IMG/VR virus record: IMGVR_UViG_3300046529_000082 | Location: 1-25,874 of that record | Reading direction: 5' to 3' (one strand) | DNA: 25,874 bases | Source of the DNA: a virus | In this document: positions 2,685 through 6,112 of the stretch, piece by piece | Numbering within the stretch: the stretch's first letter is position 1 | How the letters are laid out: each line of letters begins with the position of its first letter | Program-made: the position numbers and the translations under genes | The notes under the pieces: generated by a model | Databases searched by the model: none | What the model saw: the letters and a program-made list of their open reading frames with translations, nothing else | Told to the model about the DNA's origin: nothing

Positions 2685-2842
2685 GCGCAGAACTGGTGGT
2701 GAAGATCGGGGCCCTCTCGCGCAAGATCGAAGAGGCCTCGGCCAAGGGCTTTAAGGAGAACGCCATGGCCCTCAATCTCGTGTCGGAACTCAAGGATACG
2801 GTGGAGTTGCTTGAGGAACTGGCGCATCGGGAGTTTGCATGA
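2678..2842 (+). CDS. Small helical hypothetical protein (54 residues)
   Basis: A short acidic/basic helical protein whose heptad-like hydrophobic spacing suggests a small coiled coil. ATG 2678 is chosen because GGAG lies about 9 bases upstream and the start overlaps the end of paralog C by 7 bases. In-frame starts further upstream would lie deep inside paralog C. The stop overlaps the next ATG as ATGA. No family recognised. Confidence 0.65.
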   Translation: MLSAELVVKIGALSRKIEEASAKGFKENAMALNLVSELKDTVELLEELAHREFA

Positions 2843-3597
2843 GCCGAATCGTCTGCTGGTTCTCCTGCGGCGCGGCCAGTGCAGTCGCGACCAAGCTGGC
2901 GATCACCGACGCCTGCAAGTCAGGCGCAGAAGTGATCGTCGCCTATGCAGGAATTCTGGAGGAGCACCCCGACAATCGCCGCTTTCTTGCCGACTGCGAA
3001 GCATGGTTTGGACAAAAGGTGGTCATGTTGAGCAACGAGAAGTTCGGCGCGTCGATTTACGAAGTGTTCAAGCGCGAGCGCTTTCTCGTTGGCCCACGCG
3101 GTGCGGCATGCACTCGACTGCTGAAGAAAGGCGTCCGCGAGTCGTTCGAACTCCCCGGCGACCGCCAGGTGTTCGGCTACACGATGGAAGAACAGGATCG
3201 CGTGGACCGGTTCATCGATGCGAACAACCACGTCGATCTGTGGGCGCCGCTGATCGACAGGGGTCTATCGAAAGGTGATTGCCTGGCGATCGTCAAGGGC
3301 GCAGGCATCCAACTGCCCGCCATGTATGTGCTGGGCTATCGGAACAACAACTGCATCGGCTGCGTCAAGGGCGGCGCTGGCTACTGGAACAAGATCCGCG
3401 TCGATTTCCCGGAAACTTTCGAGCGAATGGCGAAGGTTGAGGAATACCTCGGCCGCACCGTCTGCAAGATCACCGAGGAAGGAGTGACGCGCCGCGTATC
3501 GCTTCGCGAGTTGCCGCCCCATGTTGGCGACTACGAATCCGAGCCCGACATGAGCTGCGGCATTTTCTGCCACATGGCCGAACAGGAGATTGCGTAA
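2839..3597 (+). CDS. PAPS-reductase/ATP-PPase-like phage protein
   Basis: A 252-residue member of the phage PAPS reductase-like (adenine nucleotide alpha hydrolase) family. The N-terminal strand and loop read IVCWFSCGAASA (residues 4-15), which occupies the PP-loop position usually written SGGKDS. The Lys-Asp of that motif is absent here. Cys 91, the pair Cys 172/Cys 175 (NNCIGC) and Cys 240/Cys 244 could bind an Fe-S cluster or zinc, as in PAPS/APS reductases and DndC. The length fits the phage family. Whether it reduces sulfate, modifies DNA or does something else is not known. No DndA/D/E-like neighbours are visible. ATGA overlap at the start. Confidence 0.85.
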   Translation: MSRIVCWFSCGAASAVATKLAITDACKSGAEVIVAYAGILEEHPDNRRFLADCEAWFGQKVVMLSNEKFGASIYEVFKRERFLVGPRGAACTRLLKKGVRESFELPGDRQVFGYTMEEQDRVDRFIDANNHVDLWAPLIDRGLSKGDCLAIVKGAGIQLPAMYVLGYRNNNCIGCVKGGAGYWNKIRVDFPETFERMAKVEEYLGRTVCKITEEGVTRRVSLRELPPHVGDYESEPDMSCGIFCHMAEQEIA

Positions 3598-4482: not shown

Positions 4483-4691
4483 GCATCGTATTCAAAAAGG
4501 CCGAGGGCCACGGCGGGAAAAAGGTCTGGTACGACCGCAGCAAAAGCCGATCCACCGGACAAAGATGGCGCAAGTATCACGTGTTCGCACTTTCGCTAGT
4601 GGTATGCAGCGAGGGTTCGCTGTGGCGACTAATCATCGGGCCCTGGGCTATCGCATTCCGGTTCCGCGGCACGAAAGGAGGCGGGCAATGA
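4479..4691 (+). CDS. Small hypothetical protein with hydrophobic segment (GTG start)
   Basis: A 70-residue protein: a basic N-terminal third, then a largely hydrophobic stretch (HVFALSLVVCSEGSLWRLII, continuing to about residue 62) and a basic tail ending GTKGGGQ. The GTG at 4479 overlaps the previous TGA as GTGA and is the best-placed start; an ATG at 4431 would lie deep inside the previous gene. The hydrophobic part could be a beta-rich core or a weak membrane segment. No lysis-protein hallmark is clear. Its end contains the SD (AAAGGAGG) of the next gene. Confidence 0.6.
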   Translation: MSIVFKKAEGHGGKKVWYDRSKSRSTGQRWRKYHVFALSLVVCSEGSLWRLIIGPWAIAFRFRGTKGGGQ

Positions 4692-5161
4692 AGCGTACCG
4701 GATTCGGACCACGCAAGTCCACGCTCAAGCGCTCGCCCTTCTCCCGCAAAGGCTCACCCTTCTCGCCCGACCGCCAAACATTCGAGCGCAACCAGGAGGC
4801 GAAGAAGAGAGTCGGTCTCAAGCGGAAGGCGAAGCGGCCGACCGTCGAGGAGGGGGCGAAGTATCTGGCGGCTTGCTGCGGGGAACCGTGCTTTCTCCGC
4901 ATGTACGGCTGTCTCGGCGGCGGCGAGACGGTTGTGCCCTGCCACTCTAACCAAGCGCGGCACGGGAAGGGAATGGGCATCAAGGCGAAACACGAATTCA
5001 CGGTTCCGGGGTGTGCTAATTGTCATGCGCTCATAGACCAAGGGCCGGGACTGCGCGAGCACAAGTTCGCTGCGTGGGACGTCGCATTCGAGGCGTGGGT
5101 TCCGGTGCGGGCCAGGAAGATGGGCATCGAAATTGAACAACAAGAATTGGAGGTCGCTTGA
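4688..5161 (+). CDS. DUF1364 (YbcO-like) putative nuclease
   Basis: A 157-residue protein of the DUF1364 family of lambdoid phages and prophages, thought to be an HNH-like nuclease acting in recombination. Family signs are Cys 63/64, Cys 68 and Cys 75, then ETVVPCHSNQARHGKGMGIK (79-98), and the metal-binding CANCHALID (109-117). The N-terminal 50 residues are very basic and include RSPFSRKGSPFSPDR, probably a DNA-contacting extension. ATG 4688 follows AAAGGAGG at 4675-4682 with good spacing. It ends at TGA 5159-5161, overlapping both downstream starts. Nuclease activity is inferred from the family. Confidence 0.8.
   Translation: MKRTGFGPRKSTLKRSPFSRKGSPFSPDRQTFERNQEAKKRVGLKRKAKRPTVEEGAKYLAACCGEPCFLRMYGCLGGGETVVPCHSNQARHGKGMGIKAKHEFTVPGCANCHALIDQGPGLREHKFAAWDVAFEAWVPVRARKMGIEIEQQELEVA
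5149..5153 (+). promoter_or_regulatory. Single SD serving two starts in different frames
   Basis: GGAGG lies 4 bases before a TTG (5158) that opens the methyltransferase frame. It lies 8 bases before an ATG (5162) that opens the alternative frame. The spacing is better for the ATG. Both starts would compete for the same ribosome-binding event. Confidence 0.6.
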
Positions 5162-6096
5162 ATGAGCTTCATCTATTCGCGGGCGCTGGTGGAGGCATTC
5201 TCGCCGGCCAACTTAGAGGAAACCAATGCGTCTGCGCCGTCGAGCGGGAGCCCTACGCTCAAGCCGTGCTTGTGGCACGACAAAACGACGGTACGTTCCC
5301 CCCTTTCCCGGTTTGGGATGACGTGTGCACCTTTGACGGACGACCGTGGCGCGGCATTGTTGACATCGTTGCTGGCGGCTTTCCGTGTCAAGACGTCAGC
5401 GTTGCAGGAACAGGCGATGGCCTCGACGGCGAGCGAAGCGGACTATGGACTGAAATGGCGCGGATCATTCGCGAAGTACGCCCCAAGCGAGTCGAAGTGG
5501 AAAACAGCCCAGTGCTCACTTCTCGGGGACTCGGACGAGTTCTTGGAGACTTGGCCGAGATGGGGTTCGATGTTGAATGGGGAGTGCTATCTGCGGCCGA
5601 TTGTGGCGCCCACCATCTCCGCGAGCGCATCTGGATTCTGGCCCACGCCGACAGCGAGTCTAGCGGACAAGGGTGGCCGGGTGACGCCGACGAAGGGGCG
5701 CGAGGGCGGAACTTTGATCGAAGCGCTGTCGGCGCGCATGTTTCCGACTCCATGCGCGATCGACTCGGGCGGCGGCCGGATGAACAAGAGCGCGAGCTCG
5801 GGAGCCAAAGAGCGCCCGACGCTGGGGTTGATGGCGCGAAAGGGGTTGTGGCCGACGCCATGTGCAAGCGCATCCAAGGGATCGTCGCCGGCAGCGCTGA
5901 CGCGAAAGAATGGCAAAGACCGTTCCAACGATCGGATCGACCACGCGGTTATGGCTTCGGACGGTGGCCAGCTGAACCCGGAATGGGTCGAGTGGTTGAT
6001 GGGATGGCCCATCGGGCACACCGCATTAGAGCCCTTGGCAACGGACAAGTATCAAGAGTGGCTTGCGCAGCATTCACCCTACTCTCAAATAAATGA
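5158..6096 (+). CDS. C5-cytosine DNA methyltransferase
   Basis: A 312-residue DNA (cytosine-5) methyltransferase that would transfer a methyl group from S-adenosylmethionine to cytosine in phage or host DNA. Motifs in order: SAM-binding motif I HLFAGAGGG (5-13); catalytic motif IV GFPCQ with Cys 77 (74-78); motif VI EN at 115-116, followed by Ser instead of the usual Val; motif VIII HLRERIW (153-159); motif X RALGNGQV (291-298). The start must be the TTG at 5158, since motif I begins five codons later. The middle (about 163-270) is the expected target-recognition region. Almost the whole gene is overlapped by the ORF at 5162. A protective anti-restriction role is likely but unproven. Confidence 0.88.
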   Translation: MNELHLFAGAGGGILAGQLRGNQCVCAVEREPYAQAVLVARQNDGTFPPFPVWDDVCTFDGRPWRGIVDIVAGGFPCQDVSVAGTGDGLDGERSGLWTEMARIIREVRPKRVEVENSPVLTSRGLGRVLGDLAEMGFDVEWGVLSAADCGAHHLRERIWILAHADSESSGQGWPGDADEGARGRNFDRSAVGAHVSDSMRDRLGRRPDEQERELGSQRAPDAGVDGAKGVVADAMCKRIQGIVAGSADAKEWQRPFQRSDRPRGYGFGRWPAEPGMGRVVDGMAHRAHRIRALGNGQVSRVACAAFTLLSNK

Positions 6097-6112
6097 CCAG
6101 GAGGCCGCATGA
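5162..6112 (+). CDS. Overprinted ORF with WPTP repeats, second frame of the methyltransferase gene
   Basis: A 316-residue ORF in the +1 frame relative to the methyltransferase, open over the same 950 bases. Three internal repeats of (W/F)PTP(T/C)A occur at residues 159-165, 193-199 and 229-235. Other striking segments are ETWPRWGSMLNGE (129-141) and LNPEWVEWLMGWPIG (271-285). I recall these motifs in phage proteins often labelled DNA methyltransferase-associated or hypothetical. It has ATG 5162 with ideal SD spacing. It ends in QEAA with TGA overlapping the next ATG, in the same junction cassette as other genes of this operon, whereas the methyltransferase stops 13 bases before that ATG. Function unknown. 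Confidence 0.7.
   Translation: MSFIYSRALVEAFSPANLEETNASAPSSGSPTLKPCLWHDKTTVRSPLSRFGMTCAPLTDDRGAALLTSLLAAFRVKTSALQEQAMASTASEADYGLKWRGSFAKYAPSESKWKTAQCSLLGDSDEFLETWPRWGSMLNGECYLRPIVAPTISASASGFWPTPTASLADKGGRVTPTKGREGGTLIEALSARMFPTPCAIDSGGGRMNKSASSGAKERPTLGLMARKGLWPTPCASASKGSSPAALTRKNGKDRSNDRIDHAVMASDGGQLNPEWVEWLMGWPIGHTALEPLATDKYQEWLAQHSPYSQINDQEAA

Follow-up and report, generated by a model that had tools for sequence, protein, structure and literature searches.

Among prokaryotes and their viruses, long same-strand overlaps in which both products are shown to be under selection are, to our knowledge, rare and a matter of debate. Among the C5-cytosine DNA methyltransferases, the small subunit of M.EcoHK31I is encoded in another frame within the large-subunit gene. 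In this two-polypeptide enzyme (YGGCCR), motifs I-VIII and X are found on the large subunit and motif IX on the smaller polypeptide (PMC3404938). M.AquI (CYCGRG) is naturally divided into two chains, alpha and beta, one of them catalytic and the other with motif IX and part of the variable region (PMC3404938). A hidden reading frame of another kind is represented by the ShiLan element, an out-of-frame HNH ORF in a phage methylase gene (PMC11855218).

Here we analyze a viral contig of 25.9 kb from IMG/VR (IMGVR_UViG_3300046529_000082, positions 1 to 25,874; this whole stretch is referred to below as the window). The same ~950 bases of the window carry two open ORFs in different frames, as an earlier note on this DNA had claimed: alpha (5158-6096) and beta (5162-6112), the latter in the +1 frame. 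The comparisons described below suggest that the locus very probably encodes one heterodimeric C5-cytosine DNA methyltransferase with the two subunits in overlapping frames. A single heterodimeric enzyme is the most likely product because the C-terminal half of beta is found in frame between motifs VIII and X in single-chain relatives.

The two overlapping genes and their parts

The alpha ORF (5158..6096, plus strand, 312 aa, TTG start) encodes a predicted C5-cytosine methyltransferase large subunit which contains, in the alpha frame, motif I (5173-5196), motif IV with PCQ (5374-5400), motif VI (5497-5511), which reads ENSP and is ENV-like, motif VIII (5611-5640) and motif X (near 6037-6051, ..RALGNGQV). 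The Pfam family PF00145 matches alpha with E 1.3e-30 at residues 3-167 only, phrog_363 matches it with E 1.1e-63, and the hhalign alignment with canonical C5-methyltransferases (E 2.3e-25) extends only up to about residue 168. Thus, the earlier description of a methyltransferase intact across its whole length is valid for the PF00145 motifs I, IV, VI and VIII and for motif X, all of which are present in the one chain, and fails for motif IX and the conserved recognition domain, which are absent from alpha according to Pfam and to profile comparison with canonical enzymes. The catalytic half with motifs I-VIII (5158..5643, plus strand) is overprinted by the N-terminal segment of beta (residues 1 to ~150), and the pre-X region with motif X (EPGMGRVVDGMAHRAHRIRALGNGQV.., 5974..6087, plus strand; GNGQV), which is detected in the alpha frame by the aX profile (83 bits, 5959-6087), is overprinted on the motif IX of beta. 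Under the repeats, alpha is hardly conserved in sequence and beta is conserved in blocks.

The beta ORF (5162..6112, plus strand, 316 aa, ATG start) encodes a putative recognition-region and motif IX subunit. In PHROGs, its match is phrog_1008 (E 5.6e-30), a family labeled 'DNA methyltransferase', and no family in Pfam or NCBIfam is matched. All the features previously pointed out in this frame are present, namely three (W/F)PTP(T/C)A repeats (WPTPTA at 5639-5656, FPTPCA at 5741-5758 and WPTPCA at 5849-5866), ETWPRWG (5546-5566) and LNPEWVEWLMGWP (5972-6010). The N-terminal segment includes a conserved block (KWKTAQCSLLGDS .. ETWPRWG, 5495..5566, plus strand) that lies over alpha motifs VI to VIII. 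The target-recognition-like region (5639..5968, plus strand) belongs to the beta frame, alpha running through it as passenger sequence, and aligns with single-chain methyltransferases; the motif IX equivalent (GQLNPEWVEWLMGWP, 5966..6010, plus strand), also in the beta frame, has an in-frame counterpart in single-chain relatives. The repeats resemble the 'TL' consensus of C5 recognition domains, P(STCA)PT(ILV)(TASV) (PMC2413257).

When compared with an alignment of single-chain C5-methyltransferases, beta yields an hhalign match with E 2.4e-17 that spans the WPTP region and LNPxWVExLMGxP. In each of six distinct single-chain relatives (L205, L197, L192, L291, L296 and L301), one ORF holds motifs I-VIII, WPTP-like repeats, LNPxWVExLMGFP or a close variant, and motif X, the LNPxWVExLMGFP-type segment being located in frame between the recognition region and motif X. 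Because the single-chain relatives align there, the C-terminal half of beta appears to correspond to the segment that separates motifs VIII and X in a C5-methyltransferase, where the recognition domain and motif IX have their place. In canonical methyltransferases from public genomes, LMG[FY]P is found at the same spacing in motif IX (RxLTPRECARLMGFP). The only hhalign alignment between beta and these canonical enzymes falls at motif IX in the right register, at a probability of 0.2% and E 0.35, which is not significant, and the R and RE residues of the canonical motif are missing from beta. The assignment of a putative motif IX to beta is based on order, register and homology to the single-chain enzymes. 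The PADLOC profile for orphan methyltransferases (oMTase) PDLC03718, the only PADLOC match of beta, aligns in order with alpha residues 3-162 (profile positions 5-159) and with beta residues 220-282 (positions 289-351). A search of solved structures with the beta profile returned nothing significant, and the AlphaFold model of beta alone (100 sequences) has no confident fold (pLDDT 57, pTM 0.27). In the model of a single-chain enzyme, the catalytic part and the motif X helix are confident and the recognition region is not resolved; the best Foldseek matches of this model are to M.HhaI, with about 184 aligned columns.

The starts of the two genes are packed into TTGAATG (5158..5164, plus strand), where the alpha TTG at 5158, the TGA of the upstream gene at 5159-5161 and the beta ATG at 5162 are all inside 7 nt, after GGAGG, with the beta start 4 nt after that of alpha. 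Among 118 distinct loci, xTGAATG is found at the start of the pair in 110 and a Shine-Dalgarno-like string in 95. A single ribosome-binding site would serve both genes, with initiation either at TTG 5158 for alpha or at ATG 5162 for beta. Such adjacent-start initiation is supported by analogy with the ambiguous initiation at overlapping AUGUG/GUGUG start codons in Escherichia coli, although the start spacing differs (PMC9841429). Motifs I-VIII, for AdoMet binding and catalysis, would then come from alpha together with the C-terminal motif X, and the target-recognition region (the WPTP-repeat segment) and the motif IX equivalent would come from beta. The separate chains would assemble into the usual two-lobed enzyme, which would methylate phage DNA at a specific site. 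We infer translation of both ORFs, assembly, activity and specificity from the sequence, along with an anti-restriction role: judging from the family, the methylation most likely shields the phage DNA against restriction by the host.

The coupled junction that had been reported for beta is indeed found at its 3' end, where the stop (..GCATGA) and the ATG that starts the next gene at 6109 share the bases ATGA (6109..6112, plus strand). This junction is not specific to beta because ATGA is found at alpha stops in 53 of the 118 loci, compared to 46 for beta stops. The gene directly upstream of the pair (4565-5161) encodes an HNH endonuclease (phrog_131, E 8.3e-30), and terminase, portal and scaffold genes are located downstream (PHROGs). 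A homing-endonuclease-like gene (1515-2258, phrog_314/5123) and a PAPS-reductase-like gene (2839-3597, phrog_424) are also found near the methyltransferase.

The N-terminal segment of beta (~150 aa) is conserved but has no known counterpart, and none in the single-chain enzymes, so that its conservation is not explained by a simple split. Tentatively, the first ~150 residues of beta might be a segment made de novo by overprinting on the catalytic domain and now selected across phages, for example as an alpha-beta assembly or regulatory domain, and the repeat array might allow specificity to change by swapping of recognition units without touching the catalytic part. Together with a possible stand-alone beta on one contig without PF00145, the same segment could be taken to indicate that beta has a job of its own, as an anti-restriction protein or a regulator or inhibitor of the methyltransferase, and was overprinted by chance. 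We consider this unlikely because the C-terminal half of beta is homologous to precisely the part of the single-chain methyltransferases that alpha is missing, and no similarity of beta to HNH, GIY-YIG, anti-restriction or other defence families was found in Pfam, PHROGs and PADLOC. The same homology (E 2.4e-17) to the recognition and motif IX segment speaks against a separate second function, which the earlier note had considered in the form of a possible modification or anti-restriction pair; given this homology, the two products are most likely parts of a single modification enzyme.

Selection on the alpha and beta frames

The scan of the viral contigs in IMG/VR for beta identified at least 598 confirmed relatives. 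Among the best 80 of these (at least 598) relatives, beta is open in 80/80, so that the beta-frame stops that would speak against a second gene are not observed, alpha is open in 79/80, with a stop in L064 as the sole exception, and the third frame contains ~16 stops on average; in most of these 80, the alpha start is 4 nt ahead of the beta start. Over the catalytic half, the beta frame is stop-free in 123 of 126 loci, compared to 8.1 expected when the synonymous codons of alpha are shuffled within each gene, and the score of the beta N-segment profile is a median of 9 SD over the codon shuffles in loci that were not used to build the profile, where the shuffles disregard sequence context and the related loci are counted without being independent.

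The codon-position rates (at 80-90% identity) are 0.144/0.070/0.287 for alpha positions 1/2/3 in the catalytic half and 0.090/0.067/0.343 for beta positions 1/2/3 in the recognition half. The fastest position is the alpha third over motifs I-VIII and the beta third, which is the alpha first, between the first WPTP repeat and motif IX, so that within the gene the constraint passes from the alpha frame to the beta frame. In the catalytic half, the mean rates are similar to those of the controls, and it is only by codon shuffling and by per-codon synonymous conservation that the constraint on beta in this region becomes visible. In particular, the excess of synonymous codon identity in alpha averages 0.17 in the window-type loci. 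In relatives with beta starting part-way, the excess is 0.116-0.145 under beta vs 0.008-0.023 outside, a difference within the same loci that speaks against common descent as its source. Frozen synonymous codons of alpha are found at beta residues such as W113, T115, P132 and G135; for example, alpha V114 is encoded by GTG in 60/60 GTN codons, matching beta W113, and alpha A133 by GCC in 64/64 GCN codons, matching beta P132.

Constraint is also apparent in the opposite direction. Across the recognition region, the alpha frame is stop-free in 217 of 219 nested loci vs 20.7 expected with shuffled beta codons. When motif X is located in beta, there is no constraint on the alpha frame in this region, as indicated by 9.94 stops compared to the expected 10.22. 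In the nested loci, alpha has to cross the repeats to reach motif X, so the overlap persists precisely in those loci in which an open frame is required for a part further downstream. Thus, purifying selection, as detected by sequence comparison, acts on both frames: for beta, it is seen in the shuffle, codon-position and synonymous tests alike, and the overprinting with both products conserved that had been suggested is borne out. Comparison also establishes which frame is functional in each region of the gene, in addition to the openness of the frames and the homology between the C-terminal half of beta and a part of the single-chain enzymes.

The path of constraint (frame 0, then +1, then 0) and the existence of single-chain forms with exactly that domain order would also be compatible with programmed frameshifting, whereby one polypeptide is produced by a +1 shift after motif VIII, for the recognition region and motif IX, and a shift back for motif X. 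This explanation appears quite improbable since the beta frame over the catalytic half need not then be open (123/126) or conserved at the amino acid level. Furthermore, window-type loci would require two shifts, alpha need not stay open through the recognition region (217/219), there would be no role for an ATG located 4 nt behind the start of alpha, and no slippery heptamer stands out 3' of motif VIII.

Long spurious ORFs are common in GC-rich genes and beta lacks a Pfam family, so beta might conceivably be an echo of the conservation of a methyltransferase that alone is real. We reject this possibility as highly improbable because it is contradicted by the codon-position pattern, with the coding signature of the C-terminal half in the beta frame rather than in the alpha frame, by the synonymous contrast, with the constraint on alpha ending where the beta overlap ends, and by the single-chain enzymes, in which the C-terminal half of beta is in frame. 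A hidden homing endonuclease, for which the ShiLan element in a phage methylase gene is a precedent (PMC11855218), is rejected as having next to no probability, given that beta extends over the entire gene, that searches of Pfam and PHROGs gave no HNH or GIY-YIG match for it, and that its C-terminal half is in frame in single-chain methyltransferases.

Related loci and the origin of the overlap

The arrangement interpreted here as a heterodimeric methyltransferase encoded in two frames is also found in named phages. When the final 66 conserved residues of beta from the window were used to search recorded phages, the same layout was found in phage N15 gene 58, coliphages K1G and Bas74, Edwardsiella phage eiAU and mycobacteriophage Hades. 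The motif variant is LNPxHSRWLMGxPxEW in N15, K1G, Bas74 and eiAU, and PNPTWLAWLMGFPVEW in Hades. Within N15 gene 58 (L364, NC_001901.1 44546-45541), an unannotated +1 ORF contains WNTPTAS repeats and GGQLNPHHSRWLMGLPVEW and is a predicted beta subunit. Similarly, K1G ORF30, a 'putative Mte8-like protein' (L362 1090-1782, GU196277.1 26630-27322), is a likely beta subunit, being contained wholly, in the +1 frame, within the methylase gene ORF31.

The N15-type set was selected by alpha peptides outside beta (VDERSI and TQCHFFA), with the named phage records added, which answers the objection that the loci were picked by beta itself. This independent set includes 83 loci with motif X, of which 67 have a recognizable motif IX, always in the +1 frame; alpha is open to motif X in all 67 of these, and the excess synonymous identity is 0.235 under beta vs 0.015 outside. 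The layout of overlapping predicted subunits recurs in hundreds of phages.

Classified by profile, with the frames of the motifs taken relative to the catalytic half and without deduplication of loci, 269 loci are nested like the window (motif IX in +1, X in 0), 24 have both IX and X in +1, that is, in beta (e.g., L118, L132 and L193), and 12, duplicates included, are single-chain. Relatives of beta without the overlap, which the note had mentioned, do exist but mostly are in-frame fusions, i.e., single-chain enzymes, or forms with X also in beta. The search for stand-alone homologs of beta produced only one candidate, an ORF with the recognition region, IX and X on an incomplete 16.8-kb contig (L194 2501-3193, and L321 from the same contig) with no PF00145 anywhere on the contig.

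In the tree of the catalytic part, which is unrooted and has many weak branches, 18 changes of architecture or start type are needed, several of them forced by well-supported branches. Motifs IX and X are consecutive in the loci of the Diva type and occupy the same bases in the window type (beta 5966-6010, alpha 5974-6051). The nested layout most likely arose by frame changes inside an ordinary single-chain gene, after which each ORF was kept open through the coding half of the other. Several loci show unusual organizations. The single ORF L244 2471-3739 contains LNPDWVEWLMGFP in the alpha frame just before motif X and a passenger-like middle, and might be a re-fusion intermediate; in L260 2972-3136, the methyltransferase reading is broken by a stretch with CDYNKPYDVMWLCQKCHHEWHK that resembles an HNH or zinc-binding insertion; and odd frame combinations in L151, L180 and L186 (e.g., frame 0 for IX combined with +2 for X) could represent frameshift pseudogenes or recent rearrangements.

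Comparison with known systems

In this overlap, each frame would encode one half of the same enzyme, the gene changes its functional frame partway along its length, and the architectures of sister loci serve as built-in controls. The presence of the same layout in laboratory phages (N15 gene 58, K1G, Bas74 and Hades) implies that gene prediction with one ORF per locus has probably lost many phage recognition subunits. If this is the case, recombinant 'alpha-only' clones of such enzymes would be inactive or mis-specified. Natural split methyltransferases are also useful in targeted methylation.

The large subunit of M.EcoHK31I is similar to alpha in having motifs I-VIII and X and no IX (PMC3404938). 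The recognition domain of that enzyme, however, has been assigned to the large subunit, whereas here the recognition-like repeats and the coding constraint are in beta, and beta covers essentially all of alpha, starting 4 nt after it. M.AquI is comparable as a natural split between a catalytic subunit and a subunit with motif IX (PMC3404938) but differs in that its small subunit also carries motif X, as in 24 of the relatives analyzed here, in contrast to the window, where X is in alpha. The single-chain orphan phage C5-methyltransferases (PF00145, phrog_363/116, PDLC03718; e.g., L205, L197 and L192) contain the same parts in one chain, in a single ORF with no overlap. The ShiLan element shares the hidden second-frame ORF in a phage methylase gene but is an inserted homing endonuclease rather than a methyltransferase part.

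The most similar annotated genes are g50 of Paenibacillus phage Diva ('g49 internal gene') and K1G ORF30 ('Mte8-like'), the same kind of +1 ORF in a methylase gene, in which beta begins inside alpha and not at the alpha start. The records of these two phages indicate that a beta-type ORF has already been seen and annotated without explanation; among open-licence PMC papers, we found none describing an overlap of the alpha/beta type in phages. Thus, motif IX on a separate small subunit was known before from M.EcoHK31I, and the new features here are the near-complete overlap, the adjacent starts, the predicted recognition region in beta, the three interconverting architectures and the breadth of the distribution.
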